From the NCBI RefSeq assembly GCF_965363235.1, contig NC_134847.1, positions 59,180,439 to 59,244,438 of the forward strand: a stretch of 64,000 nt of DNA, in the 5' to 3' direction. The position numbers and the translations under genes are program-made. Below, one piece after another: positions 18,711-64,000 of this stretch (its first letter is position 1; the number at the start of each line of letters is the position of its first letter). Source of the DNA: Mytilus galloprovincialis. Taxonomy: Eukaryota > Mollusca > Bivalvia > Mytilida > Mytilidae. The notes under the pieces were generated by a model, which worked only from the letters and a program-made list of their open reading frames with translations, made no database searches and had not been told where the DNA came from.

Positions 18711-23095
<4,385 letters not shown>

Positions 23096-23211: not shown

Positions 23212-23437
23212 CTATCTTAATCAAACAAACGTTTTCCTTCTTTACTGTATTATTTGTTAAATTCAGCACTTACTTCGCCCTCAATTTCTAACTCAGAAAT
23301 TTCCCATTCATGACATTAATCTGAAATGCCTTTAGTTATTTAAGATATCAATGAATTGGATGCAAATACATATTTTTTTCTCAAGCATCAAATAGACATT
23401 GACCAAATCGGAAGTTGGATTCAGCAGCTGAGCTTAA

Positions 23438-23890
23438 TAGGCCCAAGACCACAATTAATGACCCCGCTTTTCGTTGTTCACGAATATAGTTCCCTTTAAT
23501 TATAGTGTATTTTTTCTTTATTTTTTTTCTTTCCCTTTCTCATTCATTTCTTAGCTTTTCTGGGGTGGGCATGAAAGAAGAGAGCTGAAATAAACTTTTG
23601 GATGTTTTATTTTAACTGATTTTAATAAGGAAAGAGTGATTAGGCCAGGTGCAAAAAGGTTATATTTACACTTTTCGGAACATCTCTTGACTTGCCTATA
23701 GGGGTATGGATGTGTATTGGCCAAATTTGTATGATGTAAACATGCAATTTTTTTGAAAATTGCATATGTTTTGGGACTTGAACTGTACATTACTCACACA
23801 AAAAAGTATACAAAAAGAACAATTGAATTTTTTTTAATGCGACAAAACGTTATAAAGAAATGATAGAAGAATTAATTGTGGTCTCGGGCC
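23438..23890. mobile_element. 453-bp TIR-bounded cassette inside each full monomer
   Basis: First of many identical copies. The left end TAGGCCCAAGACCACAAT (then TAAT; 23438-23459) is the reverse complement of 23871-23892 with one mismatch (A against G at the eighth base). TAA stands on both sides (23435-23437 and 23891-23893; the TA of the right repeat overlaps the second). In three short monomers the flanks are joined as GGCCCCTAAGAGGTGC, with a single TAA and no cassette. This is the structure of a non-autonomous DNA transposon with a TAA target duplication. A TAA target and GGCC-type ends would suit PIF/Harbinger-like MITEs, but the extra TA at the left tip leaves the family open. The interior has one 79-residue minus-strand frame (23551-23790) that resembles nothing I know. 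Confidence 0.75.
23742..23765. repeat. Perfect 10-bp-stem hairpin inside the cassette
   Basis: ATGCAATTTT, loop TTTG, AAAATTGCAT. It is present in every full monomer. The sequence after the N gap (40926) resumes inside the right arm of this hairpin, so it may have hindered read-through or assembly there. Confidence 0.85.
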
Positions 23891-26800
23891 TAAGAGGTGC
23901 ATTTCAGCAAATTTTGAATTTATACTTTGACAACTTCTCTGAATGATCTATTGGTATTTATTTGTCAAACTATGTGAGAAGAAATGGTTTCCACTTTTAT
24001 TTGATAGAAATTTGTAAAAAAAGTCACTTTTCAGCTAATATGCCCAAAAAGTAGCTTTTTCACTTTTTTCAATATTTTTGCAAAAGCAGCATTCTTAATT
24101 TTTCTCTGACATTTTTTTTCTGATATCTATTTGTGTTTGTGGTATTTATTTCATGTGTTTTACTCATTTGTGAACTCTGAACACAAAGAAAGGTGGATAA
24201 AAGCATAAAAAGAGTGCAAAATGTGCTGTTTTAATAGTCTAGGTCTAGCGGTCCGTACGAAGCAAGTGAAATATGAAGTTCTATGCACTTAAAAATTGTA
24301 TTTCTTTAAACAGATTGCACTGAATCTATATCAAAAGTACTTATTACTGGTTGTTTAAACTTGTCTGTTTCACAGAATACCTTTATTTTCTTCTTTTGGA
24401 TGGCTGGTGGTTAAAATATTGGCATTTTAAGACTGAAATTTCATGCAGGTTTTAAACAGTAAATTGAAAAAACTTTGCATCAGACCATACTGTCTACATA
24501 TATAGTTAAAAGCAACAGTCTTGTTACATCCAGGCTTCATATTTGATCATATCTTAGCAAGGATTTGGGCAAAAAGAAGCATATTTCCATCTCCAATATC
24601 ATTTATATGCAATTATATATGGAAATACAGGGAATGGCCTAAATTGACAACTTGTTATTTTAAGCTTGACATTGCTTAAGACCAAGTAAAACTCATGTGT
24701 TATACTATTTGAAACTTATATTTACATGAAAAGAATATTTATGATATGTTAAATGTTTTGTTTTAACTTAATAACTTCAGAAAATTGTTGTAAGTGGAAA
24801 ATATGACATTTCATATAAGGCCTCGCTTCATTTGAAAACCTCTATTTTTTGGCATAGGCACATATAAAATTAACTTTTGTCAATTTTTTATAAGTCTCAT
24901 ACATTAAGTATGCTATCCTTTACTTTGAATAGATAATATCTTATACATTGAGACATAAAAAAGGGCAATTTGGTGTTTTGGGGGGATTTTTGAAGCCAAA
25001 ATTTGAAAGTTGAAATTTTTCTATCTATACGTCACAATTCAGCAACCAAAGTTGAGATATAAAAAATGCCACATTTTCTAAAATATATATCATATGGCTA
25101 TGAAACTTTGTAAACTGACTTATAAAACACTAAGCTTAAATCATGCCAAGTTTTATTGGAATTGGTCAAGTTTTTGGCCCCTAATAGGCCCAAGACCACA
25201 ATTAATGACCCCGCTTTTCGTTGTTCACGAATATAGTTCCCTTTAATTATAGTGTATTTTTTCTTTATTTTTTTTCTTTCCCTTTCTCATTCATTTCTTA
25301 GCTTTTCTGGGGTGGGCATGAAAGAAGAGAGCTGAAATAAACTTTTGGATGTTTTATTTTAACTGATTTTAATAAGGAAAGAGTGATTAGGCCAGGTGCA
25401 AAAAGGTTATATTTACACTTTTCGGAACATCTCTTGACTTGCCTATAGGGGTATGGATGTGTATTGGCCAAATTTGTATGATGTAAACATGCAATTTTTT
25501 TGAAAATTGCATATGTTTTGGGACTTGAACTGTACATTACTCACACAAAAAAGTATACAAAAAGAACAATTGAATTTTTTTTAATGCGACAAAACGTTAT
25601 AAAGAAATGATAGAAGAATTAATTGTGGTCTCGGGCCTAAGAGGTGCATTTCAGCAAATTTTGAATTTATACTTTGACAACTTCTCTGAATGATCTATTG
25701 GTATTTATTTGTCAAACTATGTGAGAAGAAATGGTTTCCACTTTTATTTGATAGAAATTTGTAAAAAAAGTCACTTTTCAGCTAATATGCCCAAAAAGTA
25801 GCTTTTTCACTTTTTTCAATATTTTTGCAAAAGCAGCATTCTTAATTTTTCTCTGACATTTTTTTTCTGATATCTATTTGTGTTTGTGGTATTTATTTCA
25901 TGTGTTTTACTCATTTGTGAACTCTGAACACAAAGAAAGGTGGATAAAAGCATAAAAAGAGTGCAAAATGTGCTGTTTTAATAGTCTAGGTCTAGCGGTC
26001 CGTACGAAGCAAGTGAAATATGAAGTTCTATGCACTTAAAAATTGTATTTCTTTAAACAGATTGCACTGAATCTATATCAAAAGTACTTATTACTGGTTG
26101 TTTAAACTTGTCTGTTTCACAGAATACCTTTATTTTCTTCTTTTGGATGGCTGGTGGTTAAAATATTGGCATTTTAAGACTGAAATTTCATGCAGGTTTT
26201 AAACAGTAAATTGAAAAAACTTTGCATCAGACCATACTGTCTACATATATAGTTAAAAGCAACAGTCTTGTTACATCCAGGCTTCATATTTGATCATATC
26301 TTAGCAAGGATTTGGGCAAAAAGAAGCATATTTCCATCTCCAATATCATTTATATGCAATTATATATGGAAATACAGGGAATGGCCTAAATTGACAACTT
26401 GTTATTTTAAGCTTGACATTGCTTAAGACCAAGTAAAACTCATGTGTTATACTATTTGAAACTTATATTTACATGAAAAGAATATTTATGATATGTTAAA
26501 TGTTTTGTTTTAACTTAATAACTTCAGAAAATTGTTGTAAGTGGAAAATATGACATTTCATATAAGGCCTCGCTTCATTTGAAAACCTCTATTTTTTGGC
26601 ATAGGCACATATAAAATTAACTTTTGTCAATTTTTTATAAGTCTCATACATTAAGTATGCTATCCTTTACTTTGAATAGATAATATCTTATACATTGAGA
26701 CATAAAAAAGGGCAATTTGGTGTTTTGGGGGGATTTTTGAAGCCAAAATTTGAAAGTTGAAATTTTTCTATCTATACGTCACAATTCAGCAACCAAAGTT

Positions 26801-29800
26801 GAGATATAAAAAATGCCACATTTTCTAAAATATATATCATATGGCTATGAAACTTTGTAAACTGACTTATAAAACACTAAGCTTAAATCATGCCAAGTTT
26901 TATTGGAATTGGTCAAGTTTTTGGCCCCTAATAGGCCCAAGACCACAATTAATGACCCCGCTTTTCGTTGTTCACGAATATAGTTCCCTTTAATTATAGT
27001 GTATTTTTTCTTTATTTTTTTTCTTTCCCTTTCTCATTCATTTCTTAGCTTTTCTGGGGTGGGCATGAAAGAAGAGAGCTGAAATAAACTTTTGGATGTT
27101 TTATTTTAACTGATTTTAATAAGGAAAGAGTGATTAGGCCAGGTGCAAAAAGGTTATATTTACACTTTTCGGAACATCTCTTGACTTGCCTATAGGGGTA
27201 TGGATGTGTATTGGCCAAATTTGTATGATGTAAACATGCAATTTTTTTGAAAATTGCATATGTTTTGGGACTTGAACTGTACATTACTCACACAAAAAAG
27301 TATACAAAAAGAACAATTGAATTTTTTTTAATGCGACAAAACGTTATAAAGAAATGATAGAAGAATTAATTGTGGTCTCGGGCCTAAGAGGTGCATTTCA
27401 GCAAATTTTGAATTTATACTTTGACAACTTCTCTGAATGATCTATTGGTATTTATTTGTCAAACTATGTGAGAAGAAATGGTTTCCACTTTTATTTGATA
27501 GAAATTTGTAAAAAAAGTCACTTTTCAGCTAATATGCCCAAAAAGTAGCTTTTTCACTTTTTTCAATATTTTTGCAAAAGCAGCATTCTTAATTTTTCTC
27601 TGACATTTTTTTTCTGATATCTATTTGTGTTTGTGGTATTTATTTCATGTGTTTTACTCATTTGTGAACTCTGAACACAAAGAAAGGTGGATAAAAGCAT
27701 AAAAAGAGTGCAAAATGTGCTGTTTTAATAGTCTAGGTCTAGCGGTCCGTACGAAGCAAGTGAAATATGAAGTTCTATGCACTTAAAAATTGTATTTCTT
27801 TAAACAGATTGCACTGAATCTATATCAAAAGTACTTATTACTGGTTGTTTAAACTTGTCTGTTTCACAGAATACCTTTATTTTCTTCTTTTGGATGGCTG
27901 GTGGTTAAAATATTGGCATTTTAAGACTGAAATTTCATGCAGGTTTTAAACAGTAAATTGAAAAAACTTTGCATCAGACCATACTGTCTACATATATAGT
28001 TAAAAGCAACAGTCTTGTTACATCCAGGCTTCATATTTGATCATATCTTAGCAAGGATTTGGGCAAAAAGAAGCATATTTCCATCTCCAATATCATTTAT
28101 ATGCAATTATATATGGAAATACAGGGAATGGCCTAAATTGACAACTTGTTATTTTAAGCTTGACATTGCTTAAGACCAAGTAAAACTCATGTGTTATACT
28201 ATTTGAAACTTATATTTACATGAAAAGAATATTTATGATATGTTAAATGTTTTGTTTTAACTTAATAACTTCAGAAAATTGTTGTAAGTGGAAAATATGA
28301 CATTTCATATAAGGCCTCGCTTCATTTGAAAACCTCTATTTTTTGGCATAGGCACATATAAAATTAACTTTTGTCAATTTTTTATAAGTCTCATACATTA
28401 AGTATGCTATCCTTTACTTTGAATAGATAATATCTTATACATTGAGACATAAAAAAGGGCAATTTGGTGTTTTGGGGGGATTTTTGAAGCCAAAATTTGA
28501 AAGTTGAAATTTTTCTATCTATACGTCACAATTCAGCAACCAAAGTTGAGATATAAAAAATGCCACATTTTCTAAAATATATATCATATGGCTATGAAAC
28601 TTTGTAAACTGACTTATAAAACACTAAGCTTAAATCATGCCAAGTTTTATTGGAATTGGTCAAGTTTTTGGCCCCTAATAGGCCCAAGACCACAATTAAT
28701 GACCCCGCTTTTCGTTGTTCACGAATATAGTTCCCTTTAATTATAGTGTATTTTTTCTTTATTTTTTTTCTTTCCCTTTCTCATTCATTTCTTAGCTTTT
28801 CTGGGGTGGGCATGAAAGAAGAGAGCTGAAATAAACTTTTGGATGTTTTATTTTAACTGATTTTAATAAGGAAAGAGTGATTAGGCCAGGTGCAAAAAGG
28901 TTATATTTACACTTTTCGGAACATCTCTTGACTTGCCTATAGGGGTATGGATGTGTATTGGCCAAATTTGTATGATGTAAACATGCAATTTTTTTGAAAA
29001 TTGCATATGTTTTGGGACTTGAACTGTACATTACTCACACAAAAAAGTATACAAAAAGAACAATTGAATTTTTTTTAATGCGACAAAACGTTATAAAGAA
29101 ATGATAGAAGAATTAATTGTGGTCTCGGGCCTAAGAGGTGCATTTCAGCAAATTTTGAATTTATACTTTGACAACTTCTCTGAATGATCTATTGGTATTT
29201 ATTTGTCAAACTATGTGAGAAGAAATGGTTTCCACTTTTATTTGATAGAAATTTGTAAAAAAAGTCACTTTTCAGCTAATATGCCCAAAAAGTAGCTTTT
29301 TCACTTTTTTCAATATTTTTGCAAAAGCAGCATTCTTAATTTTTCTCTGACATTTTTTTTCTGATATCTATTTGTGTTTGTGGTATTTATTTCATGTGTT
29401 TTACTCATTTGTGAACTCTGAACACAAAGAAAGGTGGATAAAAGCATAAAAAGAGTGCAAAATGTGCTGTTTTAATAGTCTAGGTCTAGCGGTCCGTACG
29501 AAGCAAGTGAAATATGAAGTTCTATGCACTTAAAAATTGTATTTCTTTAAACAGATTGCACTGAATCTATATCAAAAGTACTTATTACTGGTTGTTTAAA
29601 CTTGTCTGTTTCACAGAATACCTTTATTTTCTTCTTTTGGATGGCTGGTGGTTAAAATATTGGCATTTTAAGACTGAAATTTCATGCAGGTTTTAAACAG
29701 TAAATTGAAAAAACTTTGCATCAGACCATACTGTCTACATATATAGTTAAAAGCAACAGTCTTGTTACATCCAGGCTTCATATTTGATCATATCTTAGCA

Positions 29801-32800
29801 AGGATTTGGGCAAAAAGAAGCATATTTCCATCTCCAATATCATTTATATGCAATTATATATGGAAATACAGGGAATGGCCTAAATTGACAACTTGTTATT
29901 TTAAGCTTGACATTGCTTAAGACCAAGTAAAACTCATGTGTTATACTATTTGAAACTTATATTTACATGAAAAGAATATTTATGATATGTTAAATGTTTT
30001 GTTTTAACTTAATAACTTCAGAAAATTGTTGTAAGTGGAAAATATGACATTTCATATAAGGCCTCGCTTCATTTGAAAACCTCTATTTTTTGGCATAGGC
30101 ACATATAAAATTAACTTTTGTCAATTTTTTATAAGTCTCATACATTAAGTATGCTATCCTTTACTTTGAATAGATAATATCTTATACATTGAGACATAAA
30201 AAAGGGCAATTTGGTGTTTTGGGGGGATTTTTGAAGCCAAAATTTGAAAGTTGAAATTTTTCTATCTATACGTCACAATTCAGCAACCAAAGTTGAGATA
30301 TAAAAAATGCCACATTTTCTAAAATATATATCATATGGCTATGAAACTTTGTAAACTGACTTATAAAACACTAAGCTTAAATCATGCCAAGTTTTATTGG
30401 AATTGGTCAAGTTTTTGGCCCCTAATAGGCCCAAGACCACAATTAATGACCCCGCTTTTCGTTGTTCACGAATATAGTTCCCTTTAATTATAGTGTATTT
30501 TTTCTTTATTTTTTTTCTTTCCCTTTCTCATTCATTTCTTAGCTTTTCTGGGGTGGGCATGAAAGAAGAGAGCTGAAATAAACTTTTGGATGTTTTATTT
30601 TAACTGATTTTAATAAGGAAAGAGTGATTAGGCCAGGTGCAAAAAGGTTATATTTACACTTTTCGGAACATCTCTTGACTTGCCTATAGGGGTATGGATG
30701 TGTATTGGCCAAATTTGTATGATGTAAACATGCAATTTTTTTGAAAATTGCATATGTTTTGGGACTTGAACTGTACATTACTCACACAAAAAAGTATACA
30801 AAAAGAACAATTGAATTTTTTTTAATGCGACAAAACGTTATAAAGAAATGATAGAAGAATTAATTGTGGTCTCGGGCCTAAGAGGTGCATTTCAGCAAAT
30901 TTTGAATTTATACTTTGACAACTTCTCTGAATGATCTATTGGTATTTATTTGTCAAACTATGTGAGAAGAAATGGTTTCCACTTTTATTTGATAGAAATT
31001 TGTAAAAAAAGTCACTTTTCAGCTAATATGCCCAAAAAGTAGCTTTTTCACTTTTTTCAATATTTTTGCAAAAGCAGCATTCTTAATTTTTCTCTGACAT
31101 TTTTTTTCTGATATCTATTTGTGTTTGTGGTATTTATTTCATGTGTTTTACTCATTTGTGAACTCTGAACACAAAGAAAGGTGGATAAAAGCATAAAAAG
31201 AGTGCAAAATGTGCTGTTTTAATAGTCTAGGTCTAGCGGTCCGTACGAAGCAAGTGAAATATGAAGTTCTATGCACTTAAAAATTGTATTTCTTTAAACA
31301 GATTGCACTGAATCTATATCAAAAGTACTTATTACTGGTTGTTTAAACTTGTCTGTTTCACAGAATACCTTTATTTTCTTCTTTTGGATGGCTGGTGGTT
31401 AAAATATTGGCATTTTAAGACTGAAATTTCATGCAGGTTTTAAACAGTAAATTGAAAAAACTTTGCATCAGACCATACTGTCTACATATATAGTTAAAAG
31501 CAACAGTCTTGTTACATCCAGGCTTCATATTTGATCATATCTTAGCAAGGATTTGGGCAAAAAGAAGCATATTTCCATCTCCAATATCATTTATATGCAA
31601 TTATATATGGAAATACAGGGAATGGCCTAAATTGACAACTTGTTATTTTAAGCTTGACATTGCTTAAGACCAAGTAAAACTCATGTGTTATACTATTTGA
31701 AACTTATATTTACATGAAAAGAATATTTATGATATGTTAAATGTTTTGTTTTAACTTAATAACTTCAGAAAATTGTTGTAAGTGGAAAATATGACATTTC
31801 ATATAAGGCCTCGCTTCATTTGAAAACCTCTATTTTTTGGCATAGGCACATATAAAATTAACTTTTGTCAATTTTTTATAAGTCTCATACATTAAGTATG
31901 CTATCCTTTACTTTGAATAGATAATATCTTATACATTGAGACATAAAAAAGGGCAATTTGGTGTTTTGGGGGGATTTTTGAAGCCAAAATTTGAAAGTTG
32001 AAATTTTTCTATCTATACGTCACAATTCAGCAACCAAAGTTGAGATATAAAAAATGCCACATTTTCTAAAATATATATCATATGGCTATGAAACTTTGTA
32101 AACTGACTTATAAAACACTAAGCTTAAATCATGCCAAGTTTTATTGGAATTGGTCAAGTTTTTGGCCCCTAATAGGCCCAAGACCACAATTAATGACCCC
32201 GCTTTTCGTTGTTCACGAATATAGTTCCCTTTAATTATAGTGTATTTTTTCTTTATTTTTTTTCTTTCCCTTTCTCATTCATTTCTTAGCTTTTCTGGGG
32301 TGGGCATGAAAGAAGAGAGCTGAAATAAACTTTTGGATGTTTTATTTTAACTGATTTTAATAAGGAAAGAGTGATTAGGCCAGGTGCAAAAAGGTTATAT
32401 TTACACTTTTCGGAACATCTCTTGACTTGCCTATAGGGGTATGGATGTGTATTGGCCAAATTTGTATGATGTAAACATGCAATTTTTTTGAAAATTGCAT
32501 ATGTTTTGGGACTTGAACTGTACATTACTCACACAAAAAAGTATACAAAAAGAACAATTGAATTTTTTTTAATGCGACAAAACGTTATAAAGAAATGATA
32601 GAAGAATTAATTGTGGTCTCGGGCCTAAGAGGTGCATTTCAGCAAATTTTGAATTTATACTTTGACAACTTCTCTGAATGATCTATTGGTATTTATTTGT
32701 CAAACTATGTGAGAAGAAATGGTTTCCACTTTTATTTGATAGAAATTTGTAAAAAAAGTCACTTTTCAGCTAATATGCCCAAAAAGTAGCTTTTTCACTT

Positions 32801-35800
32801 TTTTCAATATTTTTGCAAAAGCAGCATTCTTAATTTTTCTCTGACATTTTTTTTCTGATATCTATTTGTGTTTGTGGTATTTATTTCATGTGTTTTACTC
32901 ATTTGTGAACTCTGAACACAAAGAAAGGTGGATAAAAGCATAAAAAGAGTGCAAAATGTGCTGTTTTAATAGTCTAGGTCTAGCGGTCCGTACGAAGCAA
33001 GTGAAATATGAAGTTCTATGCACTTAAAAATTGTATTTCTTTAAACAGATTGCACTGAATCTATATCAAAAGTACTTATTACTGGTTGTTTAAACTTGTC
33101 TGTTTCACAGAATACCTTTATTTTCTTCTTTTGGATGGCTGGTGGTTAAAATATTGGCATTTTAAGACTGAAATTTCATGCAGGTTTTAAACAGTAAATT
33201 GAAAAAACTTTGCATCAGACCATACTGTCTACATATATAGTTAAAAGCAACAGTCTTGTTACATCCAGGCTTCATATTTGATCATATCTTAGCAAGGATT
33301 TGGGCAAAAAGAAGCATATTTCCATCTCCAATATCATTTATATGCAATTATATATGGAAATACAGGGAATGGCCTAAATTGACAACTTGTTATTTTAAGC
33401 TTGACATTGCTTAAGACCAAGTAAAACTCATGTGTTATACTATTTGAAACTTATATTTACATGAAAAGAATATTTATGATATGTTAAATGTTTTGTTTTA
33501 ACTTAATAACTTCAGAAAATTGTTGTAAGTGGAAAATATGACATTTCATATAAGGCCTCGCTTCATTTGAAAACCTCTATTTTTTGGCATAGGCACATAT
33601 AAAATTAACTTTTGTCAATTTTTTATAAGTCTCATACATTAAGTATGCTATCCTTTACTTTGAATAGATAATATCTTATACATTGAGACATAAAAAAGGG
33701 CAATTTGGTGTTTTGGGGGGATTTTTGAAGCCAAAATTTGAAAGTTGAAATTTTTCTATCTATACGTCACAATTCAGCAACCAAAGTTGAGATATAAAAA
33801 ATGCCACATTTTCTAAAATATATATCATATGGCTATGAAACTTTGTAAACTGACTTATAAAACACTAAGCTTAAATCATGCCAAGTTTTATTGGAATTGG
33901 TCAAGTTTTTGGCCCCTAATAGGCCCAAGACCACAATTAATGACCCCGCTTTTCGTTGTTCACGAATATAGTTCCCTTTAATTATAGTGTATTTTTTCTT
34001 TATTTTTTTTCTTTCCCTTTCTCATTCATTTCTTAGCTTTTCTGGGGTGGGCATGAAAGAAGAGAGCTGAAATAAACTTTTGGATGTTTTATTTTAACTG
34101 ATTTTAATAAGGAAAGAGTGATTAGGCCAGGTGCAAAAAGGTTATATTTACACTTTTCGGAACATCTCTTGACTTGCCTATAGGGGTATGGATGTGTATT
34201 GGCCAAATTTGTATGATGTAAACATGCAATTTTTTTGAAAATTGCATATGTTTTGGGACTTGAACTGTACATTACTCACACAAAAAAGTATACAAAAAGA
34301 ACAATTGAATTTTTTTTAATGCGACAAAACGTTATAAAGAAATGATAGAAGAATTAATTGTGGTCTCGGGCCTAAGAGGTGCATTTCAGCAAATTTTGAA
34401 TTTATACTTTGACAACTTCTCTGAATGATCTATTGGTATTTATTTGTCAAACTATGTGAGAAGAAATGGTTTCCACTTTTATTTGATAGAAATTTGTAAA
34501 AAAAGTCACTTTTCAGCTAATATGCCCAAAAAGTAGCTTTTTCACTTTTTTCAATATTTTTGCAAAAGCAGCATTCTTAATTTTTCTCTGACATTTTTTT
34601 TCTGATATCTATTTGTGTTTGTGGTATTTATTTCATGTGTTTTACTCATTTGTGAACTCTGAACACAAAGAAAGGTGGATAAAAGCATAAAAAGAGTGCA
34701 AAATGTGCTGTTTTAATAGTCTAGGTCTAGCGGTCCGTACGAAGCAAGTGAAATATGAAGTTCTATGCACTTAAAAATTGTATTTCTTTAAACAGATTGC
34801 ACTGAATCTATATCAAAAGTACTTATTACTGGTTGTTTAAACTTGTCTGTTTCACAGAATACCTTTATTTTCTTCTTTTGGATGGCTGGTGGTTAAAATA
34901 TTGGCATTTTAAGACTGAAATTTCATGCAGGTTTTAAACAGTAAATTGAAAAAACTTTGCATCAGACCATACTGTCTACATATATAGTTAAAAGCAACAG
35001 TCTTGTTACATCCAGGCTTCATATTTGATCATATCTTAGCAAGGATTTGGGCAAAAAGAAGCATATTTCCATCTCCAATATCATTTATATGCAATTATAT
35101 ATGGAAATACAGGGAATGGCCTAAATTGACAACTTGTTATTTTAAGCTTGACATTGCTTAAGACCAAGTAAAACTCATGTGTTATACTATTTGAAACTTA
35201 TATTTACATGAAAAGAATATTTATGATATGTTAAATGTTTTGTTTTAACTTAATAACTTCAGAAAATTGTTGTAAGTGGAAAATATGACATTTCATATAA
35301 GGCCTCGCTTCATTTGAAAACCTCTATTTTTTGGCATAGGCACATATAAAATTAACTTTTGTCAATTTTTTATAAGTCTCATACATTAAGTATGCTATCC
35401 TTTACTTTGAATAGATAATATCTTATACATTGAGACATAAAAAAGGGCAATTTGGTGTTTTGGGGGGATTTTTGAAGCCAAAATTTGAAAGTTGAAATTT
35501 TTCTATCTATACGTCACAATTCAGCAACCAAAGTTGAGATATAAAAAATGCCACATTTTCTAAAATATATATCATATGGCTATGAAACTTTGTAAACTGA
35601 CTTATAAAACACTAAGCTTAAATCATGCCAAGTTTTATTGGAATTGGTCAAGTTTTTGGCCCCTAATAGGCCCAAGACCACAATTAATGACCCCGCTTTT
35701 CGTTGTTCACGAATATAGTTCCCTTTAATTATAGTGTATTTTTTCTTTATTTTTTTTCTTTCCCTTTCTCATTCATTTCTTAGCTTTTCTGGGGTGGGCA

Positions 35801-40825: not shown

Positions 40826-40925
40826 NNNNNNNNNNNNNNNNNNNNNNNNNNNNNNNNNNNNNNNNNNNNNNNNNNNNNNNNNNNNNNNNNNNNNNNNNNN
40901 NNNNNNNNNNNNNNNNNNNNNNNNN
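40826..40925. other. Assembly gap of 100 N within the array
   Basis: The base before the gap is monomer offset 1667 (0-based from the TAATAGG start) and the base after is offset 327. Keeping the array in phase requires 406 bp plus a whole number of 1747-bp units, not 100. The N run is therefore a placeholder and an unknown number of monomers may be missing. Confidence 0.97.
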
Positions 40926-49900: not shown

Positions 49901-52900
49901 TGATAGAAATTTGTAAAAAAAGTCACTTTTCAGCTAATATGCCCAAAAAGTAGCTTTTTCACTTTTTTCAATATTTTTGCAAAAGCAGCATTCTTAATTT
50001 TTCTCTGACATTTTTTTTCTGATATCTATTTGTGTTTGTGGTATTTATTTCATGTGTTTTACTCATTTGTGAACTCTGAACACAAAGAAAGGTGGATAAA
50101 AGCATAAAAAGAGTGCAAAATGTGCTGTTTTAATAGTCTAGGTCTAGCGGTCCGTACGAAGCAAGTGAAATATGAAGTTCTATGCACTTAAAAATTGTAT
50201 TTCTTTAAACAGATTGCACTGAATCTATATCAAAAGTACTTATTACTGGTTGTTTAAACTTGTCTGTTTCACAGAATACCTTTATTTTCTTCTTTTGGAT
50301 GGCTGGTGGTTAAAATATTGGCATTTTAAGACTGAAATTTCATGCAGGTTTTAAACAGTAAATTGAAAAAACTTTGCATCAGACCATACTGTCTACATAT
50401 ATAGTTAAAAGCAACAGTCTTGTTACATCCAGGCTTCATATTTGATCATATCTTAGCAAGGATTTGGGCAAAAAGAAGCATATTTCCATCTCCAATATCA
50501 TTTATATGCAATTATATATGGAAATACAGGGAATGGCCTAAATTGACAACTTGTTATTTTAAGCTTGACATTGCTTAAGACCAAGTAAAACTCATGTGTT
50601 ATACTATTTGAAACTTATATTTACATGAAAAGAATATTTATGATATGTTAAATGTTTTGTTTTAACTTAATAACTTCAGAAAATTGTTGTAAGTGGAAAA
50701 TATGACATTTCATATAAGGCCTCGCTTCATTTGAAAACCTCTATTTTTTGGCATAGGCACATATAAAATTAACTTTTGTCAATTTTTTATAAGTCTCATA
50801 CATTAAGTATGCTATCCTTTACTTTGAATAGATAATATCTTATACATTGAGACATAAAAAAGGGCAATTTGGTGTTTTGGGGGGATTTTTGAAGCCAAAA
50901 TTTGAAAGTTGAAATTTTTCTATCTATACGTCACAATTCAGCAACCAAAGTTGAGATATAAAAAATGCCACATTTTCTAAAATATATATCATATGGCTAT
51001 GAAACTTTGTAAACTGACTTATAAAACACTAAGCTTAAATCATGCCAAGTTTTATTGGAATTGGTCAAGTTTTTGGCCCCTAATAGGCCCAAGACCACAA
51101 TTAATGACCCCGCTTTTCGTTGTTCACGAATATAGTTCCCTTTAATTATAGTGTATTTTTTCTTTATTTTTTTTCTTTCCCTTTCTCATTCATTTCTTAG
51201 CTTTTCTGGGGTGGGCATGAAAGAAGAGAGCTGAAATAAACTTTTGGATGTTTTATTTTAACTGATTTTAATAAGGAAAGAGTGATTAGGCCAGGTGCAA
51301 AAAGGTTATATTTACACTTTTCGGAACATCTCTTGACTTGCCTATAGGGGTATGGATGTGTATTGGCCAAATTTGTATGATGTAAACATGCAATTTTTTT
51401 GAAAATTGCATATGTTTTGGGACTTGAACTGTACATTACTCACACAAAAAAGTATACAAAAAGAACAATTGAATTTTTTTTAATGCGACAAAACGTTATA
51501 AAGAAATGATAGAAGAATTAATTGTGGTCTCGGGCCTAAGAGGTGCATTTCAGCAAATTTTGAATTTATACTTTGACAACTTCTCTGAATGATCTATTGG
51601 TATTTATTTGTCAAACTATGTGAGAAGAAATGGTTTCCACTTTTATTTGATAGAAATTTGTAAAAAAAGTCACTTTTCAGCTAATATGCCCAAAAAGTAG
51701 CTTTTTCACTTTTTTCAATATTTTTGCAAAAGCAGCATTCTTAATTTTTCTCTGACATTTTTTTTCTGATATCTATTTGTGTTTGTGGTATTTATTTCAT
51801 GTGTTTTACTCATTTGTGAACTCTGAACACAAAGAAAGGTGGATAAAAGCATAAAAAGAGTGCAAAATGTGCTGTTTTAATAGTCTAGGTCTAGCGGTCC
51901 GTACGAAGCAAGTGAAATATGAAGTTCTATGCACTTAAAAATTGTATTTCTTTAAACAGATTGCACTGAATCTATATCAAAAGTACTTATTACTGGTTGT
52001 TTAAACTTGTCTGTTTCACAGAATACCTTTATTTTCTTCTTTTGGATGGCTGGTGGTTAAAATATTGGCATTTTAAGACTGAAATTTCATGCAGGTTTTA
52101 AACAGTAAATTGAAAAAACTTTGCATCAGACCATACTGTCTACATATATAGTTAAAAGCAACAGTCTTGTTACATCCAGGCTTCATATTTGATCATATCT
52201 TAGCAAGGATTTGGGCAAAAAGAAGCATATTTCCATCTCCAATATCATTTATATGCAATTATATATGGAAATACAGGGAATGGCCTAAATTGACAACTTG
52301 TTATTTTAAGCTTGACATTGCTTAAGACCAAGTAAAACTCATGTGTTATACTATTTGAAACTTATATTTACATGAAAAGAATATTTATGATATGTTAAAT
52401 GTTTTGTTTTAACTTAATAACTTCAGAAAATTGTTGTAAGTGGAAAATATGACATTTCATATAAGGCCTCGCTTCATTTGAAAACCTCTATTTTTTGGCA
52501 TAGGCACATATAAAATTAACTTTTGTCAATTTTTTATAAGTCTCATACATTAAGTATGCTATCCTTTACTTTGAATAGATAATATCTTATACATTGAGAC
52601 ATAAAAAAGGGCAATTTGGTGTTTTGGGGGGATTTTTGAAGCCAAAATTTGAAAGTTGAAATTTTTCTATCTATACGTCACAATTCAGCAACCAAAGTTG
52701 AGATATAAAAAATGCCACATTTTCTAAAATATATATCATATGGCTATGAAACTTTGTAAACTGACTTATAAAACACTAAGCTTAAATCATGCCAAGTTTT
52801 ATTGGAATTGGTCAAGTTTTTGGCCCCTAATAGGCCCAAGACCACAATTAATGACCCCGCTTTTCGTTGTTCACGAATATAGTTCCCTTTAATTATAGTG

Positions 52901-55900
52901 TATTTTTTCTTTATTTTTTTTCTTTCCCTTTCTCATTCATTTCTTAGCTTTTCTGGGGTGGGCATGAAAGAAGAGAGCTGAAATAAACTTTTGGATGTTT
53001 TATTTTAACTGATTTTAATAAGGAAAGAGTGATTAGGCCAGGTGCAAAAAGGTTATATTTACACTTTTCGGAACATCTCTTGACTTGCCTATAGGGGTAT
53101 GGATGTGTATTGGCCAAATTTGTATGATGTAAACATGCAATTTTTTTGAAAATTGCATATGTTTTGGGACTTGAACTGTACATTACTCACACAAAAAAGT
53201 ATACAAAAAGAACAATTGAATTTTTTTTAATGCGACAAAACGTTATAAAGAAATGATAGAAGAATTAATTGTGGTCTCGGGCCTAAGAGGTGCATTTCAG
53301 CAAATTTTGAATTTATACTTTGACAACTTCTCTGAATGATCTATTGGTATTTATTTGTCAAACTATGTGAGAAGAAATGGTTTCCACTTTTATTTGATAG
53401 AAATTTGTAAAAAAAGTCACTTTTCAGCTAATATGCCCAAAAAGTAGCTTTTTCACTTTTTTCAATATTTTTGCAAAAGCAGCATTCTTAATTTTTCTCT
53501 GACATTTTTTTTCTGATATCTATTTGTGTTTGTGGTATTTATTTCATGTGTTTTACTCATTTGTGAACTCTGAACACAAAGAAAGGTGGATAAAAGCATA
53601 AAAAGAGTGCAAAATGTGCTGTTTTAATAGTCTAGGTCTAGCGGTCCGTACGAAGCAAGTGAAATATGAAGTTCTATGCACTTAAAAATTGTATTTCTTT
53701 AAACAGATTGCACTGAATCTATATCAAAAGTACTTATTACTGGTTGTTTAAACTTGTCTGTTTCACAGAATACCTTTATTTTCTTCTTTTGGATGGCTGG
53801 TGGTTAAAATATTGGCATTTTAAGACTGAAATTTCATGCAGGTTTTAAACAGTAAATTGAAAAAACTTTGCATCAGACCATACTGTCTACATATATAGTT
53901 AAAAGCAACAGTCTTGTTACATCCAGGCTTCATATTTGATCATATCTTAGCAAGGATTTGGGCAAAAAGAAGCATATTTCCATCTCCAATATCATTTATA
54001 TGCAATTATATATGGAAATACAGGGAATGGCCTAAATTGACAACTTGTTATTTTAAGCTTGACATTGCTTAAGACCAAGTAAAACTCATGTGTTATACTA
54101 TTTGAAACTTATATTTACATGAAAAGAATATTTATGATATGTTAAATGTTTTGTTTTAACTTAATAACTTCAGAAAATTGTTGTAAGTGGAAAATATGAC
54201 ATTTCATATAAGGCCTCGCTTCATTTGAAAACCTCTATTTTTTGGCATAGGCACATATAAAATTAACTTTTGTCAATTTTTTATAAGTCTCATACATTAA
54301 GTATGCTATCCTTTACTTTGAATAGATAATATCTTATACATTGAGACATAAAAAAGGGCAATTTGGTGTTTTGGGGGGATTTTTGAAGCCAAAATTTGAA
54401 AGTTGAAATTTTTCTATCTATACGTCACAATTCAGCAACCAAAGTTGAGATATAAAAAATGCCACATTTTCTAAAATATATATCATATGGCTATGAAACT
54501 TTGTAAACTGACTTATAAAACACTAAGCTTAAATCATGCCAAGTTTTATTGGAATTGGTCAAGTTTTTGGCCCCTAATAGGCCCAAGACCACAATTAATG
54601 ACCCCGCTTTTCGTTGTTCACGAATATAGTTCCCTTTAATTATAGTGTATTTTTTCTTTATTTTTTTTCTTTCCCTTTCTCATTCATTTCTTAGCTTTTC
54701 TGGGGTGGGCATGAAAGAAGAGAGCTGAAATAAACTTTTGGATGTTTTATTTTAACTGATTTTAATAAGGAAAGAGTGATTAGGCCAGGTGCAAAAAGGT
54801 TATATTTACACTTTTCGGAACATCTCTTGACTTGCCTATAGGGGTATGGATGTGTATTGGCCAAATTTGTATGATGTAAACATGCAATTTTTTTGAAAAT
54901 TGCATATGTTTTGGGACTTGAACTGTACATTACTCACACAAAAAAGTATACAAAAAGAACAATTGAATTTTTTTTAATGCGACAAAACGTTATAAAGAAA
55001 TGATAGAAGAATTAATTGTGGTCTCGGGCCTAAGAGGTGCATTTCAGCAAATTTTGAATTTATACTTTGACAACTTCTCTGAATGATCTATTGGTATTTA
55101 TTTGTCAAACTATGTGAGAAGAAATGGTTTCCACTTTTATTTGATAGAAATTTGTAAAAAAAGTCACTTTTCAGCTAATATGCCCAAAAAGTAGCTTTTT
55201 CACTTTTTTCAATATTTTTGCAAAAGCAGCATTCTTAATTTTTCTCTGACATTTTTTTTCTGATATCTATTTGTGTTTGTGGTATTTATTTCATGTGTTT
55301 TACTCATTTGTGAACTCTGAACACAAAGAAAGGTGGATAAAAGCATAAAAAGAGTGCAAAATGTGCTGTTTTAATAGTCTAGGTCTAGCGGTCCGTACGA
55401 AGCAAGTGAAATATGAAGTTCTATGCACTTAAAAATTGTATTTCTTTAAACAGATTGCACTGAATCTATATCAAAAGTACTTATTACTGGTTGTTTAAAC
55501 TTGTCTGTTTCACAGAATACCTTTATTTTCTTCTTTTGGATGGCTGGTGGTTAAAATATTGGCATTTTAAGACTGAAATTTCATGCAGGTTTTAAACAGT
55601 AAATTGAAAAAACTTTGCATCAGACCATACTGTCTACATATATAGTTAAAAGCAACAGTCTTGTTACATCCAGGCTTCATATTTGATCATATCTTAGCAA
55701 GGATTTGGGCAAAAAGAAGCATATTTCCATCTCCAATATCATTTATATGCAATTATATATGGAAATACAGGGAATGGCCTAAATTGACAACTTGTTATTT
55801 TAAGCTTGACATTGCTTAAGACCAAGTAAAACTCATGTGTTATACTATTTGAAACTTATATTTACATGAAAAGAATATTTATGATATGTTAAATGTTTTG

Positions 55901-56321
55901 TTTTAACTTAATAACTTCAGAAAATTGTTGTAAGTGGAAAATATGACATTTCATATAAGGCCTCGCTTCATTTGAAAACCTCTATTTTTTGGCATAGGCA
56001 CATATAAAATTAACTTTTGTCAATTTTTTATAAGTCTCATACATTAAGTATGCTATCCTTTACTTTGAATAGATAATATCTTATACATTGAGACATAAAA
56101 AAGGGCAATTTGGTGTTTTGGGGGGATTTTTGAAGCCAAAATTTGAAAGTTGAAATTTTTCTATCTATACGTCACAATTCAGCAACCAAAGTTGAGATAT
56201 AAAAAATGCCACATTTTCTAAAATATATATCATATGGCTATGAAACTTTGTAAACTGACTTATAAAACACTAAGCTTAAATCATGCCAAGTTTTATTGGA
56301 ATTGGTCAAGTTTTTGGCCCC

Positions 56322-58067
56322 TAATAGGCCCAAGACCACAATTAATGACCCCGCTTTTCGTTGTTCACGAATATAGTTCCCTTTAATTATAGTGTATTTT
56401 TTCTTTATTTTTTTTCTTTCCCTTTCTCATTCATTTCTTAGCTTTTCTGGGGTGGGCATGAAAGAAGAGAGCTGAAATAAACTTTTGGATGTTTTATTTT
56501 AACTGATTTTAATAAGGAAAGAGTGATTAGGCCAGGTGCAAAAAGGTTATATTTACACTTTTCGGAACATCTCTTGACTTGCCTATAGGGGTATGGATGT
56601 GTATTGGCCAAATTTGTATGATGTAAACATGCAATTTTTTTGAAAATTGCATATGTTTTGGGACTTGAACTGTACATTACTCACACAAAAAAGTATACAA
56701 AAAGAACAATTGAATTTTTTTTAATGCGACAAAACGTTATAAAGAAATGATAGAAGAATTAATTGTGGTCTCGGGCCTAAGAGGTGCATTTCAGCAAATT
56801 TTGAATTTATACTTTGACAACTTCTCTGAATGATCTATTGGTATTTATTTGTCAAACTATGTGAGAAGAAATGGTTTCCACTTTTATTTGATAGAAATTT
56901 GTAAAAAAAGTCACTTTTCAGCTAATATGCCCAAAAAGTAGCTTTTTCACTTTTTTCAATATTTTTGCAAAAGCAGCATTCTTAATTTTTCTCTGACATT
57001 TTTTTTCTGATATCTATTTGTGTTTGTGGTATTTATTTCATGTGTTTTACTCATTTGTGAACTCTGAACACAAAGAAAGGTGGATAAAAGCATAAAAAGA
57101 GTGCAAAATGTGCTGTTTTAATAGTCTAGGTCTAGCGGTCCGTACGAAGCAAGTGAAATATGAAGTTCTATGCACTTAAAAATTGTATTTCTTTAAACAG
57201 ATTGCACTGAATCTATATCAAAAGTACTTATTACTGGTTGTTTAAACTTGTCTGTTTCACAGAATACCTTTATTTTCTTCTTTTGGATGGCTGGTGGTTA
57301 AAATATTGGCATTTTAAGACTGAAATTTCATGCAGGTTTTAAACAGTAAATTGAAAAAACTTTGCATCAGACCATACTGTCTACATATATAGTTAAAAGC
57401 AACAGTCTTGTTACATCCAGGCTTCATATTTGATCATATCTTAGCAAGGATTTGGGCAAAAAGAAGCATATTTCCATCTCCAATATCATTTATATGCAAT
57501 TATATATGGAAATACAGGGAATGGCCTAAATTGACAACTTGTTATTTTAAGCTTGACATTGCTTAAGACCAAGTAAAACTCATGTGTTATACTATTTGAA
57601 ACTTATATTTACATGAAAAGAATATTTATGATATGTTAAATGTTTTGTTTTAACTTAATAACTTCAGAAAATTGTTGTAAGTGGAAAATATGACATTTCA
57701 TATAAGGCCTCGCTTCATTTGAAAACCTCTATTTTTTGGCATAGGCACATATAAAATTAACTTTTGTCAATTTTTATAAGTCTCATACATTAAGTATGCT
57801 ATCCTTTACTTTGAATAGATAATATCTTATACATTGAGACATAAAAAAGGGCAATTTGGTGTTTTGGGGGGATTTTTGAAGCCAAAATTTGAAAGTTGAA
57901 ATTTTTCTATCTATACGTCACAATTCAGCAACCAAAGTTGAGATATAAAAAATGCCACATTTTCTAAAATATATATCATATGGCTATGAAACTTTGTAAA
58001 CTGACTTATAAAACACTAAGCTTAAATCATGCCAAGTTTTATTGGAATTGGTCAAGTTTTTGGCCCC
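56322..58067 (+). repeat. 1746-bp monomer with single-T deletion
   Basis: Identical to the standard unit except that the T6 tract before ATAAGTCTC is T5 (57771-57775). It still contains the 453-bp cassette. It directly precedes the short units, the first of which shares the same deletion. Confidence 0.9.
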
Positions 58068-59357
58068 TAAGAGGTGCATTTCAGCAAATTTTGAATTTAT
58101 ACTTTGACAACTTCTCTGAATGATCTATTGGTATTTATTTGTCAAACTATGTGAGAAGAAATGGTTTCCACTTTTATTTGATAGAAATTTGTAAAAAAAG
58201 TCACTTTTCAGCTAATATGCCCAAAAAGTAGCTTTTTCACTTTTTTCAATATTTTTGCAAAAGCAGCATTCTTAATTTTTCTCTGACATTTTTTTTCTGA
58301 TATCTATTTGTGTTTGTGGTATTTATTTCATGTGTTTTACTCATTTGTGAACTCTGAACACAAAGAAAGGTGGATAAAAGCATAAAAAGAGTGCAAAATG
58401 TGCTGTTTTAATAGTCTAGGTCTAGCGGTCCGTACGAAGCAAGTGAAATATGAAGTTCTATGCACTTAAAAATTGTATTTCTTTAAACAGATTGCACTGA
58501 ATCTATATCAAAAGTACTTATTACTGGTTGTTTAAACTTGTCTGTTTCACAGAATACCTTTATTTTCTTCTTTTGGATGGCTGGTGGTTAAAATATTGGC
58601 ATTTTAAGACTGAAATTTCATGCAGGTTTTAAACAGTAAATTGAAAAAACTTTGCATCAGACCATACTGTCTACATATATAGTTAAAAGCAACAGTCTTG
58701 TTACATCCAGGCTTCATATTTGATCATATCTTAGCAAGGATTTGGGCAAAAAGAAGCATATTTCCATCTCCAATATCATTTATATGCAATTATATATGGA
58801 AATACAGGGAATGGCCTAAATTGACAACTTGTTATTTTAAGCTTGACATTGCTTAAGACCAAGTAAAACTCATGTGTTATACTATTTGAAACTTATATTT
58901 ACATGAAAAGAATATTTATGATATGTTAAATGTTTTGTTTTAACTTAATAACTTCAGAAAATTGTTGTAAGTGGAAAATATGACATTTCATATAAGGCCT
59001 CGCTTCATTTGAAAACCTCTATTTTTTGGCATAGGCACATATAAAATTAACTTTTGTCAATTTTTATAAGTCTCATACATTAAGTATGCTATCCTTTACT
59101 TTGAATAGATAATATCTTATACATTGAGACATAAAAAAGGGCAATTTGGTGTTTTGGGGGGATTTTTGAAGCCAAAATTTGAAAGTTGAAATTTTTCTAT
59201 CTATACGTCACAATTCAGCAACCAAAGTTGAGATATAAAAAATGCCACATTTTCTAAAATATATATCATATGGCTATGAAACTTTGTAAACTGACTTATA
59301 AAACACTAAGCTTAAATCATGCCAAGTTTTATTGGAATTGGTCAAGTTTTTGGCCCC
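58068..59357 (+). repeat. Short monomer 1 (1290 bp, lacks cassette, T5 variant)
   Basis: It begins TAAGAGGTGCATTTCAGC directly after GGCCCC, i.e. the 456 bp of cassette plus one TAA are absent. It carries the T5 variant at 59061-59065 that otherwise occurs only in the preceding full unit. Confidence 0.92.
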
Positions 59358-60648
59358 TAAGAGGTGCATTTCAGCAAATTTTGAATTTATACTTTGACAA
59401 CTTCTCTGAATGATCTATTGGTATTTATTTGTCAAACTATGTGAGAAGAAATGGTTTCCACTTTTATTTGATAGAAATTTGTAAAAAAAGTCACTTTTCA
59501 GCTAATATGCCCAAAAAGTAGCTTTTTCACTTTTTTCAATATTTTTGCAAAAGCAGCATTCTTAATTTTTCTCTGACATTTTTTTTCTGATATCTATTTG
59601 TGTTTGTGGTATTTATTTCATGTGTTTTACTCATTTGTGAACTCTGAACACAAAGAAAGGTGGATAAAAGCATAAAAAGAGTGCAAAATGTGCTGTTTTA
59701 ATAGTCTAGGTCTAGCGGTCCGTACGAAGCAAGTGAAATATGAAGTTCTATGCACTTAAAAATTGTATTTCTTTAAACAGATTGCACTGAATCTATATCA
59801 AAAGTACTTATTACTGGTTGTTTAAACTTGTCTGTTTCACAGAATACCTTTATTTTCTTCTTTTGGATGGCTGGTGGTTAAAATATTGGCATTTTAAGAC
59901 TGAAATTTCATGCAGGTTTTAAACAGTAAATTGAAAAAACTTTGCATCAGACCATACTGTCTACATATATAGTTAAAAGCAACAGTCTTGTTACATCCAG
60001 GCTTCATATTTGATCATATCTTAGCAAGGATTTGGGCAAAAAGAAGCATATTTCCATCTCCAATATCATTTATATGCAATTATATATGGAAATACAGGGA
60101 ATGGCCTAAATTGACAACTTGTTATTTTAAGCTTGACATTGCTTAAGACCAAGTAAAACTCATGTGTTATACTATTTGAAACTTATATTTACATGAAAAG
60201 AATATTTATGATATGTTAAATGTTTTGTTTTAACTTAATAACTTCAGAAAATTGTTGTAAGTGGAAAATATGACATTTCATATAAGGCCTCGCTTCATTT
60301 GAAAACCTCTATTTTTTGGCATAGGCACATATAAAATTAACTTTTGTCAATTTTTTATAAGTCTCATACATTAAGTATGCTATCCTTTACTTTGAATAGA
60401 TAATATCTTATACATTGAGACATAAAAAAGGGCAATTTGGTGTTTTGGGGGGATTTTTGAAGCCAAAATTTGAAAGTTGAAATTTTTCTATCTATACGTC
60501 ACAATTCAGCAACCAAAGTTGAGATATAAAAAATGCCACATTTTCTAAAATATATATCATATGGCTATGAAACTTTGTAAACTGACTTATAAAACACTAA
60601 GCTTAAATCATGCCAAGTTTTATTGGAATTGGTCAAGTTTTTGGCCCC
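59358..60648 (+). repeat. Short monomer 2 (1291 bp, lacks cassette)
   Basis: Same cassette-free junction as the previous unit, with the normal T6 tract. Confidence 0.92.
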
Positions 60649-61939
60649 TAAGAGGTGCATTTCAGCAAATTTTGAATTTATACTTTGACAACTTCTCTGA
60701 ATGATCTATTGGTATTTATTTGTCAAACTATGTGAGAAGAAATGGTTTCCACTTTTATTTGATAGAAATTTGTAAAAAAAGTCACTTTTCAGCTAATATG
60801 CCCAAAAAGTAGCTTTTTCACTTTTTTCAATATTTTTGCAAAAGCAGCATTCTTAATTTTTCTCTGACATTTTTTTTCTGATATCTATTTGTGTTTGTGG
60901 TATTTATTTCATGTGTTTTACTCATTTGTGAACTCTGAACACAAAGAAAGGTGGATAAAAGCATAAAAAGAGTGCAAAATGTGCTGTTTTAATAGTCTAG
61001 GTCTAGCGGTCCGTACGAAGCAAGTGAAATATGAAGTTCTATGCACTTAAAAATTGTATTTCTTTAAACAGATTGCACTGAATCTATATCAAAAGTACTT
61101 ATTACTGGTTGTTTAAACTTGTCTGTTTCACAGAATACCTTTATTTTCTTCTTTTGGATGGCTGGTGGTTAAAATATTGGCATTTTAAGACTGAAATTTC
61201 ATGCAGGTTTTAAACAGTAAATTGAAAAAACTTTGCATCAGACCATACTGTCTACATATATAGTTAAAAGCAACAGTCTTGTTACATCCAGGCTTCATAT
61301 TTGATCATATCTTAGCAAGGATTTGGGCAAAAAGAAGCATATTTCCATCTCCAATATCATTTATATGCAATTATATATGGAAATACAGGGAATGGCCTAA
61401 ATTGACAACTTGTTATTTTAAGCTTGACATTGCTTAAGACCAAGTAAAACTCATGTGTTATACTATTTGAAACTTATATTTACATGAAAAGAATATTTAT
61501 GATATGTTAAATGTTTTGTTTTAACTTAATAACTTCAGAAAATTGTTGTAAGTGGAAAATATGACATTTCATATAAGGCCTCGCTTCATTTGAAAACCTC
61601 TATTTTTTGGCATAGGCACATATAAAATTAACTTTTGTCAATTTTTTATAAGTCTCATACATTAAGTATGCTATCCTTTACTTTGAATAGATAATATCTT
61701 ATACATTGAGACATAAAAAAGGGCAATTTGGTGTTTTGGGGGGATTTTTGAAGCCAAAATTTGAAAGTTGAAATTTTTCTATCTATACGTCACAATTCAG
61801 CAACCAAAGTTGAGATATAAAAAATGCCACATTTTCTAAAATATATATCATATGGCTATGAAACTTTGTAAACTGACTTATAAAACACTAAGCTTAAATC
61901 ATGCCAAGTTTTATTGGAATTGGTCAAGTTTTTGGCCCC
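60649..61939 (+). repeat. Short monomer 3 (1291 bp, lacks cassette)
   Basis: Same cassette-free junction, normal T6 tract. It is followed at 61940 by a standard cassette-bearing 1747-bp unit. Confidence 0.92.
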
Positions 61940-64000
61940 TAATAGGCCCAAGACCACAATTAATGACCCCGCTTTTCGTTGTTCACGAATATAGTTCCCT
62001 TTAATTATAGTGTATTTTTTCTTTATTTTTTTTCTTTCCCTTTCTCATTCATTTCTTAGCTTTTCTGGGGTGGGCATGAAAGAAGAGAGCTGAAATAAAC
62101 TTTTGGATGTTTTATTTTAACTGATTTTAATAAGGAAAGAGTGATTAGGCCAGGTGCAAAAAGGTTATATTTACACTTTTCGGAACATCTCTTGACTTGC
62201 CTATAGGGGTATGGATGTGTATTGGCCAAATTTGTATGATGTAAACATGCAATTTTTTTGAAAATTGCATATGTTTTGGGACTTGAACTGTACATTACTC
62301 ACACAAAAAAGTATACAAAAAGAACAATTGAATTTTTTTTAATGCGACAAAACGTTATAAAGAAATGATAGAAGAATTAATTGTGGTCTCGGGCCTAAGA
62401 GGTGCATTTCAGCAAATTTTGAATTTATACTTTGACAACTTCTCTGAATGATCTATTGGTATTTATTTGTCAAACTATGTGAGAAGAAATGGTTTCCACT
62501 TTTATTTGATAGAAATTTGTAAAAAAAGTCACTTTTCAGCTAATATGCCCAAAAAGTAGCTTTTTCACTTTTTTCAATATTTTTGCAAAAGCAGCATTCT
62601 TAATTTTTCTCTGACATTTTTTTTCTGATATCTATTTGTGTTTGTGGTATTTATTTCATGTGTTTTACTCATTTGTGAACTCTGAACACAAAGAAAGGTG
62701 GATAAAAGCATAAAAAGAGTGCAAAATGTGCTGTTTTAATAGTCTAGGTCTAGCGGTCCGTACGAAGCAAGTGAAATATGAAGTTCTATGCACTTAAAAA
62801 TTGTATTTCTTTAAACAGATTGCACTGAATCTATATCAAAAGTACTTATTACTGGTTGTTTAAACTTGTCTGTTTCACAGAATACCTTTATTTTCTTCTT
62901 TTGGATGGCTGGTGGTTAAAATATTGGCATTTTAAGACTGAAATTTCATGCAGGTTTTAAACAGTAAATTGAAAAAACTTTGCATCAGACCATACTGTCT
63001 ACATATATAGTTAAAAGCAACAGTCTTGTTACATCCAGGCTTCATATTTGATCATATCTTAGCAAGGATTTGGGCAAAAAGAAGCATATTTCCATCTCCA
63101 ATATCATTTATATGCAATTATATATGGAAATACAGGGAATGGCCTAAATTGACAACTTGTTATTTTAAGCTTGACATTGCTTAAGACCAAGTAAAACTCA
63201 TGTGTTATACTATTTGAAACTTATATTTACATGAAAAGAATATTTATGATATGTTAAATGTTTTGTTTTAACTTAATAACTTCAGAAAATTGTTGTAAGT
63301 GGAAAATATGACATTTCATATAAGGCCTCGCTTCATTTGAAAACCTCTATTTTTTGGCATAGGCACATATAAAATTAACTTTTGTCAATTTTTTATAAGT
63401 CTCATACATTAAGTATGCTATCCTTTACTTTGAATAGATAATATCTTATACATTGAGACATAAAAAAGGGCAATTTGGTGTTTTGGGGGGATTTTTGAAG
63501 CCAAAATTTGAAAGTTGAAATTTTTCTATCTATACGTCACAATTCAGCAACCAAAGTTGAGATATAAAAAATGCCACATTTTCTAAAATATATATCATAT
63601 GGCTATGAAACTTTGTAAACTGACTTATAAAACACTAAGCTTAAATCATGCCAAGTTTTATTGGAATTGGTCAAGTTTTTGGCCCCTAATAGGCCCAAGA
63701 CCACAATTAATGACCCCGCTTTTCGTTGTTCACGAATATAGTTCCCTTTAATTATAGTGTATTTTTTCTTTATTTTTTTTCTTTCCCTTTCTCATTCATT
63801 TCTTAGCTTTTCTGGGGTGGGCATGAAAGAAGAGAGCTGAAATAAACTTTTGGATGTTTTATTTTAACTGATTTTAATAAGGAAAGAGTGATTAGGCCAG
63901 GTGCAAAAAGGTTATATTTACACTTTTCGGAACATCTCTTGACTTGCCTATAGGGGTATGGATGTGTATTGGCCAAATTTGTATGATGTAAACATGCAAT

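Follow-up and report, generated by a model that had tools for sequence, protein, structure and literature searches.

How did a transposon-like cassette come to be carried by unit after unit of a tandem array, and why do three consecutive units lack it exactly? The question is raised by a 64,000-nucleotide stretch of the Mytilus galloprovincialis genome (NC_134847.1, positions 59,180,439 to 59,244,438, forward strand; hereafter the window), in which an array of 1747-bp units begins close to the gene LANCL3. The first-pass annotation of this DNA had offered two histories, namely an older 1291-bp satellite into which a miniature inverted-repeat transposable element (MITE) inserted, or a precise loss of the cassette from units that once carried it. 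The evidence leans to loss, because diverged loaded junctions are found elsewhere, the empty units have cores of the window's own type, and the array edge lies at a cassette end; the older satellite retains some probability. With moderate confidence, we favour an old MITE insertion, a recent amplification of the loaded unit with the MITE at the breakpoint, and a secondary, precise loss of the cassette. The degrees of confidence attached to this reading and to its rivals overlap and are not meant to sum to 1.

Organization of the array

The units repeat head to tail from 23438 to the end of the window. The features that define them are the following.

23438..64000, plus strand: tandem array with a loaded unit of 1747 bp (core of 1291 bp, TAA and cassette of 453 bp), extending past the window end
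23438..23890, plus strand: first complete cassette (MITE-like, non-coding), identical to the cassettes of the 19 complete units
23438..23459, plus strand: left terminal inverted repeat (TIR), 22 bp, TAGGCCCAAGACCACAATTAAT
23871..23892, minus strand: right TIR, matching at 21 of 22 positions, its final 2 bases overlapping the next TAA
23891..25181, plus strand: first core unit, 1291 bp, opening with TAAGAGGTGC and closing with GGCCCC
25182..25184, plus strand: TAA duplication left of the second cassette (25185-25637)
40826..40925, no strand: 100-N gap within the array

Among the 23 intervals measured between successive core starts, 19 are 1747 bp long, and the others are 1441, 1290, 1290 and 1291 bp. 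The single 1441-bp interval is the unit interrupted by the N gap, and the count of complete units therefore refers to assembled copies only. All complete 1747-bp units (19/19) are identical. The earlier division of the unit into a 1291-bp core and a 453-bp cassette with 22-bp inverted ends and a TAA duplication is confirmed. The window holds 20 complete cassettes and two partial ones, at the N gap and at the window end. An open reading frame (ORF) scan revealed no ORF of at least 100 aa within the array, and no matches were obtained in Rfam. As a non-coding head-to-tail array of near-identical units, the locus has the layout of a satellite.

The cassette as a putative Tourist-like MITE

The cassette (TAGGCCC...GGGCC) measures 453 bp, or 456 bp with the duplicated TAA. 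Its TIR was matched 42 times in the window, 21 times in the left and 21 times in the right orientation, against a chance expectation of 0.04 when up to three mismatches are allowed; a chance origin of these matches is thereby ruled out. TAA stands on both sides of the cassette in the array and in the flank at the left edge, and one TAA is kept in the empty junctions, as expected for a 3-bp TWA duplication; the right-side TAA is known from one context only. The longest ORF found in the cassette has 79 aa, and the length of 453 bp falls within the range of short non-coding MITEs (100-500 bp).

PIF/Harbinger elements and Tourist MITEs create 3-bp target site duplications (TSDs), usually TAA for mPing, and their excision is generally precise, with TSD homology aiding repair (excerpts of PMC4561436 and PMC2836001). 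A curated bivalve transposon library contains 58 PIF-Harbinger elements (excerpt of PMC10294476). The cassette fits a Tourist-like MITE because of its TAA duplication, its size and its lack of coding content, and we regard it as probably of PIF/Harbinger type, without filing it as a member of the superfamily. GGCC and CACAAT are common to its TIR and to that of mPing, a plant element and the sole member compared.

Three exactly empty units

Near the right end of the window, the pattern of loaded units is broken by the following features.

56776..60646, plus strand: three cores without a following cassette (1290, 1290 and 1291 bp)
58062..58077, plus strand: empty junction 1, GGCCCC-TAA-GAGGTGC
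59352..59367, plus strand: empty junction 2, GGCCCC-TAA-GAGGTGC
60643..60658, plus strand: empty junction 3, GGCCCC-TAA-GAGGTGC

The three consecutive junctions, at 58062, 59352 and 60643, each lack the cassette together with one TAA, in agreement with the first-pass annotation. The cores of the empty units differ from the loaded core at zero or one position in 1291 bp: those starting at 56776 and 58066 have lost one T from a T6 run, and the one starting at 59356 matches the loaded core throughout. The position of the junction is ambiguous over the 5 bp CCTAA, so a microhomology deletion yields the same product as a precise excision, a caution that had been raised before and is borne out here.

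The T6-run deletion is shared by adjacent empty cores (at about 57771 and 59061), and may be a homopolymer error or else mark a lineage that was duplicated locally.

The same junctions would also be produced if the MITE had entered one unit of an older 1291-bp satellite and the loaded unit had then spread by unequal exchange, leaving the empty units as a surviving, gene-converted block. GGCCCC-TAA-GAGGTGC is exactly the expected pre-insertion site and scores 8/9 on a putative PIF target motif from plants, a fit that also counts for the history favoured here; a score of 8 or 9 is reached by 8 of the 1430 TAA/TTA sites in the left 23.4 kb. Moreover, the sole base difference among the compared cores falls in the empty block. 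Such a history does not predict an array edge at a cassette end, and it has to accommodate empty cores that lie zero or one base from the loaded core despite diverged loaded copies on other contigs. We consider it possible but somewhat unlikely. Units that had survived from a time before the insertion would be expected to lie no closer to the loaded units than P0121, a related copy described below that already carries the insertion, whereas the cores differ by 0-1 in 1291; secondary loss thus appears the simpler reading, as a lean and not as proof.

A further explanation, that the empty units or the long identity are products of assembly (collapse, repeat consensus or haplotype mixing), draws on the 100-N gap in the array, the total identity over 19 units and the nature of the change in the empty cores, a homopolymer deletion. 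An empty junction that is exact at TAA three times is not an outcome favoured by random misassembly, and both loaded junctions are present on other public contigs, on which the empty junction was not seen. This explanation is accordingly held to be improbable.

The left edge of the array

The array is bounded on the left by the following features.

23435..23437, plus strand: TAA separating the first cassette from the unique LANCL3 flank, marking the left array edge exactly at the cassette end
18711..23095, minus strand: LANCL3 gene, 99% to a Mytilus edulis protein, with the A of the start codon at 23095, 343 bp from the array edge

The array starts at 23438 with a complete cassette, and its left flank, GAGCT-TAA, shares the TAA (3 bp) alone with the internal context. 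A randomly placed edge would fall in this phase with a chance of 1 in 1747. The cassette end thus acts as a natural boundary next to TAA in two contexts that are otherwise unrelated. Quite apart from the empty units, this supports a genuine mobile element, and it suggests a role for that element in forming the array edge. This observation was absent from the first-pass annotation, and it strengthens the description given there of a TIR-bounded cassette with a TAA duplication travelling as a satellite passenger. With regard to a MITE-bounded duplication, the left edge lies at a transposon end with a TSD, and the right edge lies past the window.

The flank itself is otherwise unrelated to the unit as far as could be seen. 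A search for cassette or core copies in the left flank gave weak matches only (best E 0.011), and comparison of the 537 bp left of the array with the core yielded scores of 24 on one strand and 29 on the other (mean 20.8 and maximum 29 in 50 shuffles), that is, nothing clear. The LANCL3 product shares 99% identity with a Mytilus edulis protein over 411 residues, and the Pfam family LANC_like was detected on three exon pieces.

An array that starts precisely with the TIR, next to TAA in a flank of unrelated sequence, would also be expected if a cassette-core-cassette block had transposed to the TAA by LANCL3, or if a circle of loaded units had recombined with a resident solo cassette, the array growing afterwards. 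The loaded junctions on other contigs agree with such movement. Three points speak against it: the array is known by its left edge only, the half-site in the left flank fits the putative target motif poorly, and no movement of a block is needed if two MITEs already flanked a local 1291-bp segment. This alternative, too, is considered possible but somewhat unlikely. With two transposon ends present in every loaded unit, any cassette-to-cassette block would be a legal transposon, and a bolder and less likely proposal is that the satellite could be mobilised by a transposase, such that the array by LANCL3 is a block inserted at TAA from which cassettes are still excised precisely.

An array would likewise start exactly at a terminal repeat if the cassette were the long terminal repeat (LTR) of a small retroelement, a terminal-repeat retrotransposon in miniature (TRIM), arrayed as LTR-internal-LTR-internal in the manner of Cassandra, for which the same layout is described (excerpt of PMC7215508). 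The cassette has no TG...CA ends, no TGG occurs in the first 25 bases past it, and no polypurine tract precedes it (the longest purine run in the last 40 bases is 4). Recombination between two LTRs leaves solo LTRs, and neither the 22-bp inverted ends nor the clean cassette-free junctions would be expected from it. With the TG...CA ends, the primer site and the polypurine tract all wanting, an LTR/TRIM array was rejected as very improbable.

Related copies on other contigs

To look beyond the window, short non-coding ORFs of the unit were used as queries against a large public protein set. By this route only, related junctions were found on two other contigs and cassette pieces on two more, which is what is available on the genome-wide abundance of the satellite. 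The ORF spanning the empty junction returned two candidates alone, P0121 and P0122. P0121 (E 2.5e-13, a cluster of 5 sequences, on a 5484-bp contig) runs from the core end into the cassette start at the window's exact loaded junction, and shows 3 changes from the window in 30 core residues and none in 20 cassette residues. P0122, a weak match (E 0.43) on a 1856-bp contig, runs from the cassette end into the core start; compared with the loaded unit, 14 of its 48 cassette residues differ and 0 of its 18 core residues, the 20 residues before the junction being identical.

The divergence of P0122 is uneven within the one copy (Fisher p 0.007), possibly as a result of exchange between cassettes.

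With the cassette ORF as query, P0123 (97%) and P0124 (86%) were recovered. The first-pass annotation had asked for cassette copies with TAA duplications outside the array: the left edge supplies one such context, and P0123 and P0124 are cassette copies whose flanks are not readable. Searches with DNA patterns added nothing further. In viral_contigs, one pattern gave a single match, alone in a 13327-base locus and taken as chance, two further patterns gave 0 and 0, and the patterns of P0124 and P0121 matched 9 and 34 stretches, none of which was confirmed; in genome_contigs, two matches occurred in bacterial metagenome-assembled genomes, about the number expected by chance by our own estimate.

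Since P0121 and P0122 have diverged and yet are loaded at the same junction, and the empty cores are only 0-1 base off, the MITE insertion appears to predate the split of the window, P0121 and P0122 copies, with the empty units nesting in the window lineage.

Proposed order of events

We propose that a 453-bp non-autonomous DNA transposon, a MITE most likely of PIF/Harbinger type, inserted at a TAA site in a 1291-bp Mytilus sequence, and that in this repeat family the loaded 1747-bp unit predates the empty one. The loaded unit would then have been amplified very recently upstream of LANCL3 by MITE-bounded recombination, the MITE at the left edge being the breakpoint. A plausible starting state is two MITEs of the same family around a local segment, from which nonallelic homologous recombination or reversed-ends transposition could produce an array beginning at a MITE; identical MITEs 1291 bp apart would supply the homology for unequal exchange. 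The empty units would have lost the cassette and one TAA at a later time and precisely, either when a transposase excised the cassette and the break was repaired with the help of the TSD, or through a microhomology deletion. As the three are adjacent, there was probably one loss, followed by local duplication.

Several observations weigh against this order of events. The edge observed is the left one only, since the array continues past 64000, and gene conversion between loaded and empty cores could make old empty units look young. The contigs of P0121-P0124 may be the same locus in other animals; P0122 is a weak match at E 0.43, and P0121 represents 5 clustered sequences. The protein set yielded no empty-junction ORF, a weak negative given that the window's own empty-junction ORF is also unlisted there. 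The assignment of the element is affected as well. Its ends are asymmetric, with two extra bases on the left (TAA-TA-GGCCC) compared with the right (GGGCC-TAA), so that a TA duplication is conceivable, and the kinship of the TIR to that of mPing (GGCCAGTCACAATGG) lacks significance, since 340 and 556 of 5000 shuffles reach the same score. The left flank joined to the core start scores just 6/9 on the putative PIF target motif, which derives from plants. Target preference extends over 9 bp in plants and 15 bp in vertebrates (excerpt of PMC2836001).

Other repeats and reading frames in the left flank

Further left, the window contains several repeats of other kinds. An MITE-like element at 8778-9397 has 97-nt inverted arms that are 78% complementary, with TTAAGGTAGCACAATAC starting both ends, and another at 1294-1898 has 68-nt inverted arms that are 90% complementary and ends AATAMAATTGAGAATGG. 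A foldback-like element at 9976-10791 consists of two 200-nt inverted arms, 92% complementary and 416 nt apart, at which no clear target duplication was seen. A 352-364-bp repeat forms short tandem runs at 1-973, 3764-4328 and 6926-7303, with inverted similarity at 6926-7303, and a tandem repeat of about 147 bp with diverged copies occupies 15430-16263. Direct repeats of a few hundred bases lie at 4810-5160 and 12060-12407, about 7250 bp apart and 81-90% alike in pieces. On the minus strand, 5355-6296 encodes a 313-aa ORF with no Pfam match at E 0.001.

Comparison with known systems

Among the matches listed in a literature search on satellites and MITEs in bivalves or mussels, no title or abstract opening described this repeat, and a search on composite elements gave 0 matches. 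Transposon passengers in tandem repeats are already known, the example being Su(Ste) with 1360/Hoppel in Drosophila. Most Su(Ste) repeats carry a 1360/Hoppel insertion. In these tandem repeats, as in the mussel array, a DNA transposon has been amplified as a passenger, and transcription starts within the 1360/Hoppel insertion (excerpt of PMC10567549). Unlike Su(Ste), the mussel array consists of identical units without a long ORF, includes precise cassette-free units and has its edge at a transposon end.

The cassette itself resembles mPing and other Tourist-like PIF/Harbinger MITEs in being short and non-coding, with inverted ends and a 3-bp TAA duplication, and precise excision of the mPing type, leaving one TSD copy, would yield exactly the empty junction of the array (excerpts of PMC4561436 and PMC2836001). 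In contrast to mPing, the mussel cassette has an extra left TA, shows no significant TIR similarity and multiplies within a tandem unit. The array edge recalls maize Ac/Ds, where reversed-ends transposition acts on two neighbouring transposons and generates direct duplications that involve their ends and have TSDs at the breakpoints (excerpt of PMC3744419). Ac/Ds is a hAT system with 8-bp TSDs, whereas the mussel array comprises more than 20 units and probably grew by unequal exchange.

A tie between transposons and satellites is also seen in bivalves and other organisms, in Helentron arrays and in MITEs with internal tandem repeats (excerpt of PMC12628747). In those cases the repeats lie inside the element; in the mussel array each tandem unit contains the element. 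Arrays of the Cassandra TRIM likewise alternate a terminal repeat with an internal segment (excerpt of PMC7215508), but the mussel array is without retroelement hallmarks.

Against this background, what sets the mussel array apart is that loaded units adjoin exactly empty ones in a very young array whose edge falls on a transposon end, an arrangement from which the order of insertion, amplification and loss can be read. Should a transposase have produced the edge and the empty sites, satellites would gain a direct route by which to move and to change their unit length, and variation in copy number next to LANCL3 could be tracked in populations of mussels. The array illustrates how mobile and satellite DNA may each arise from the other.

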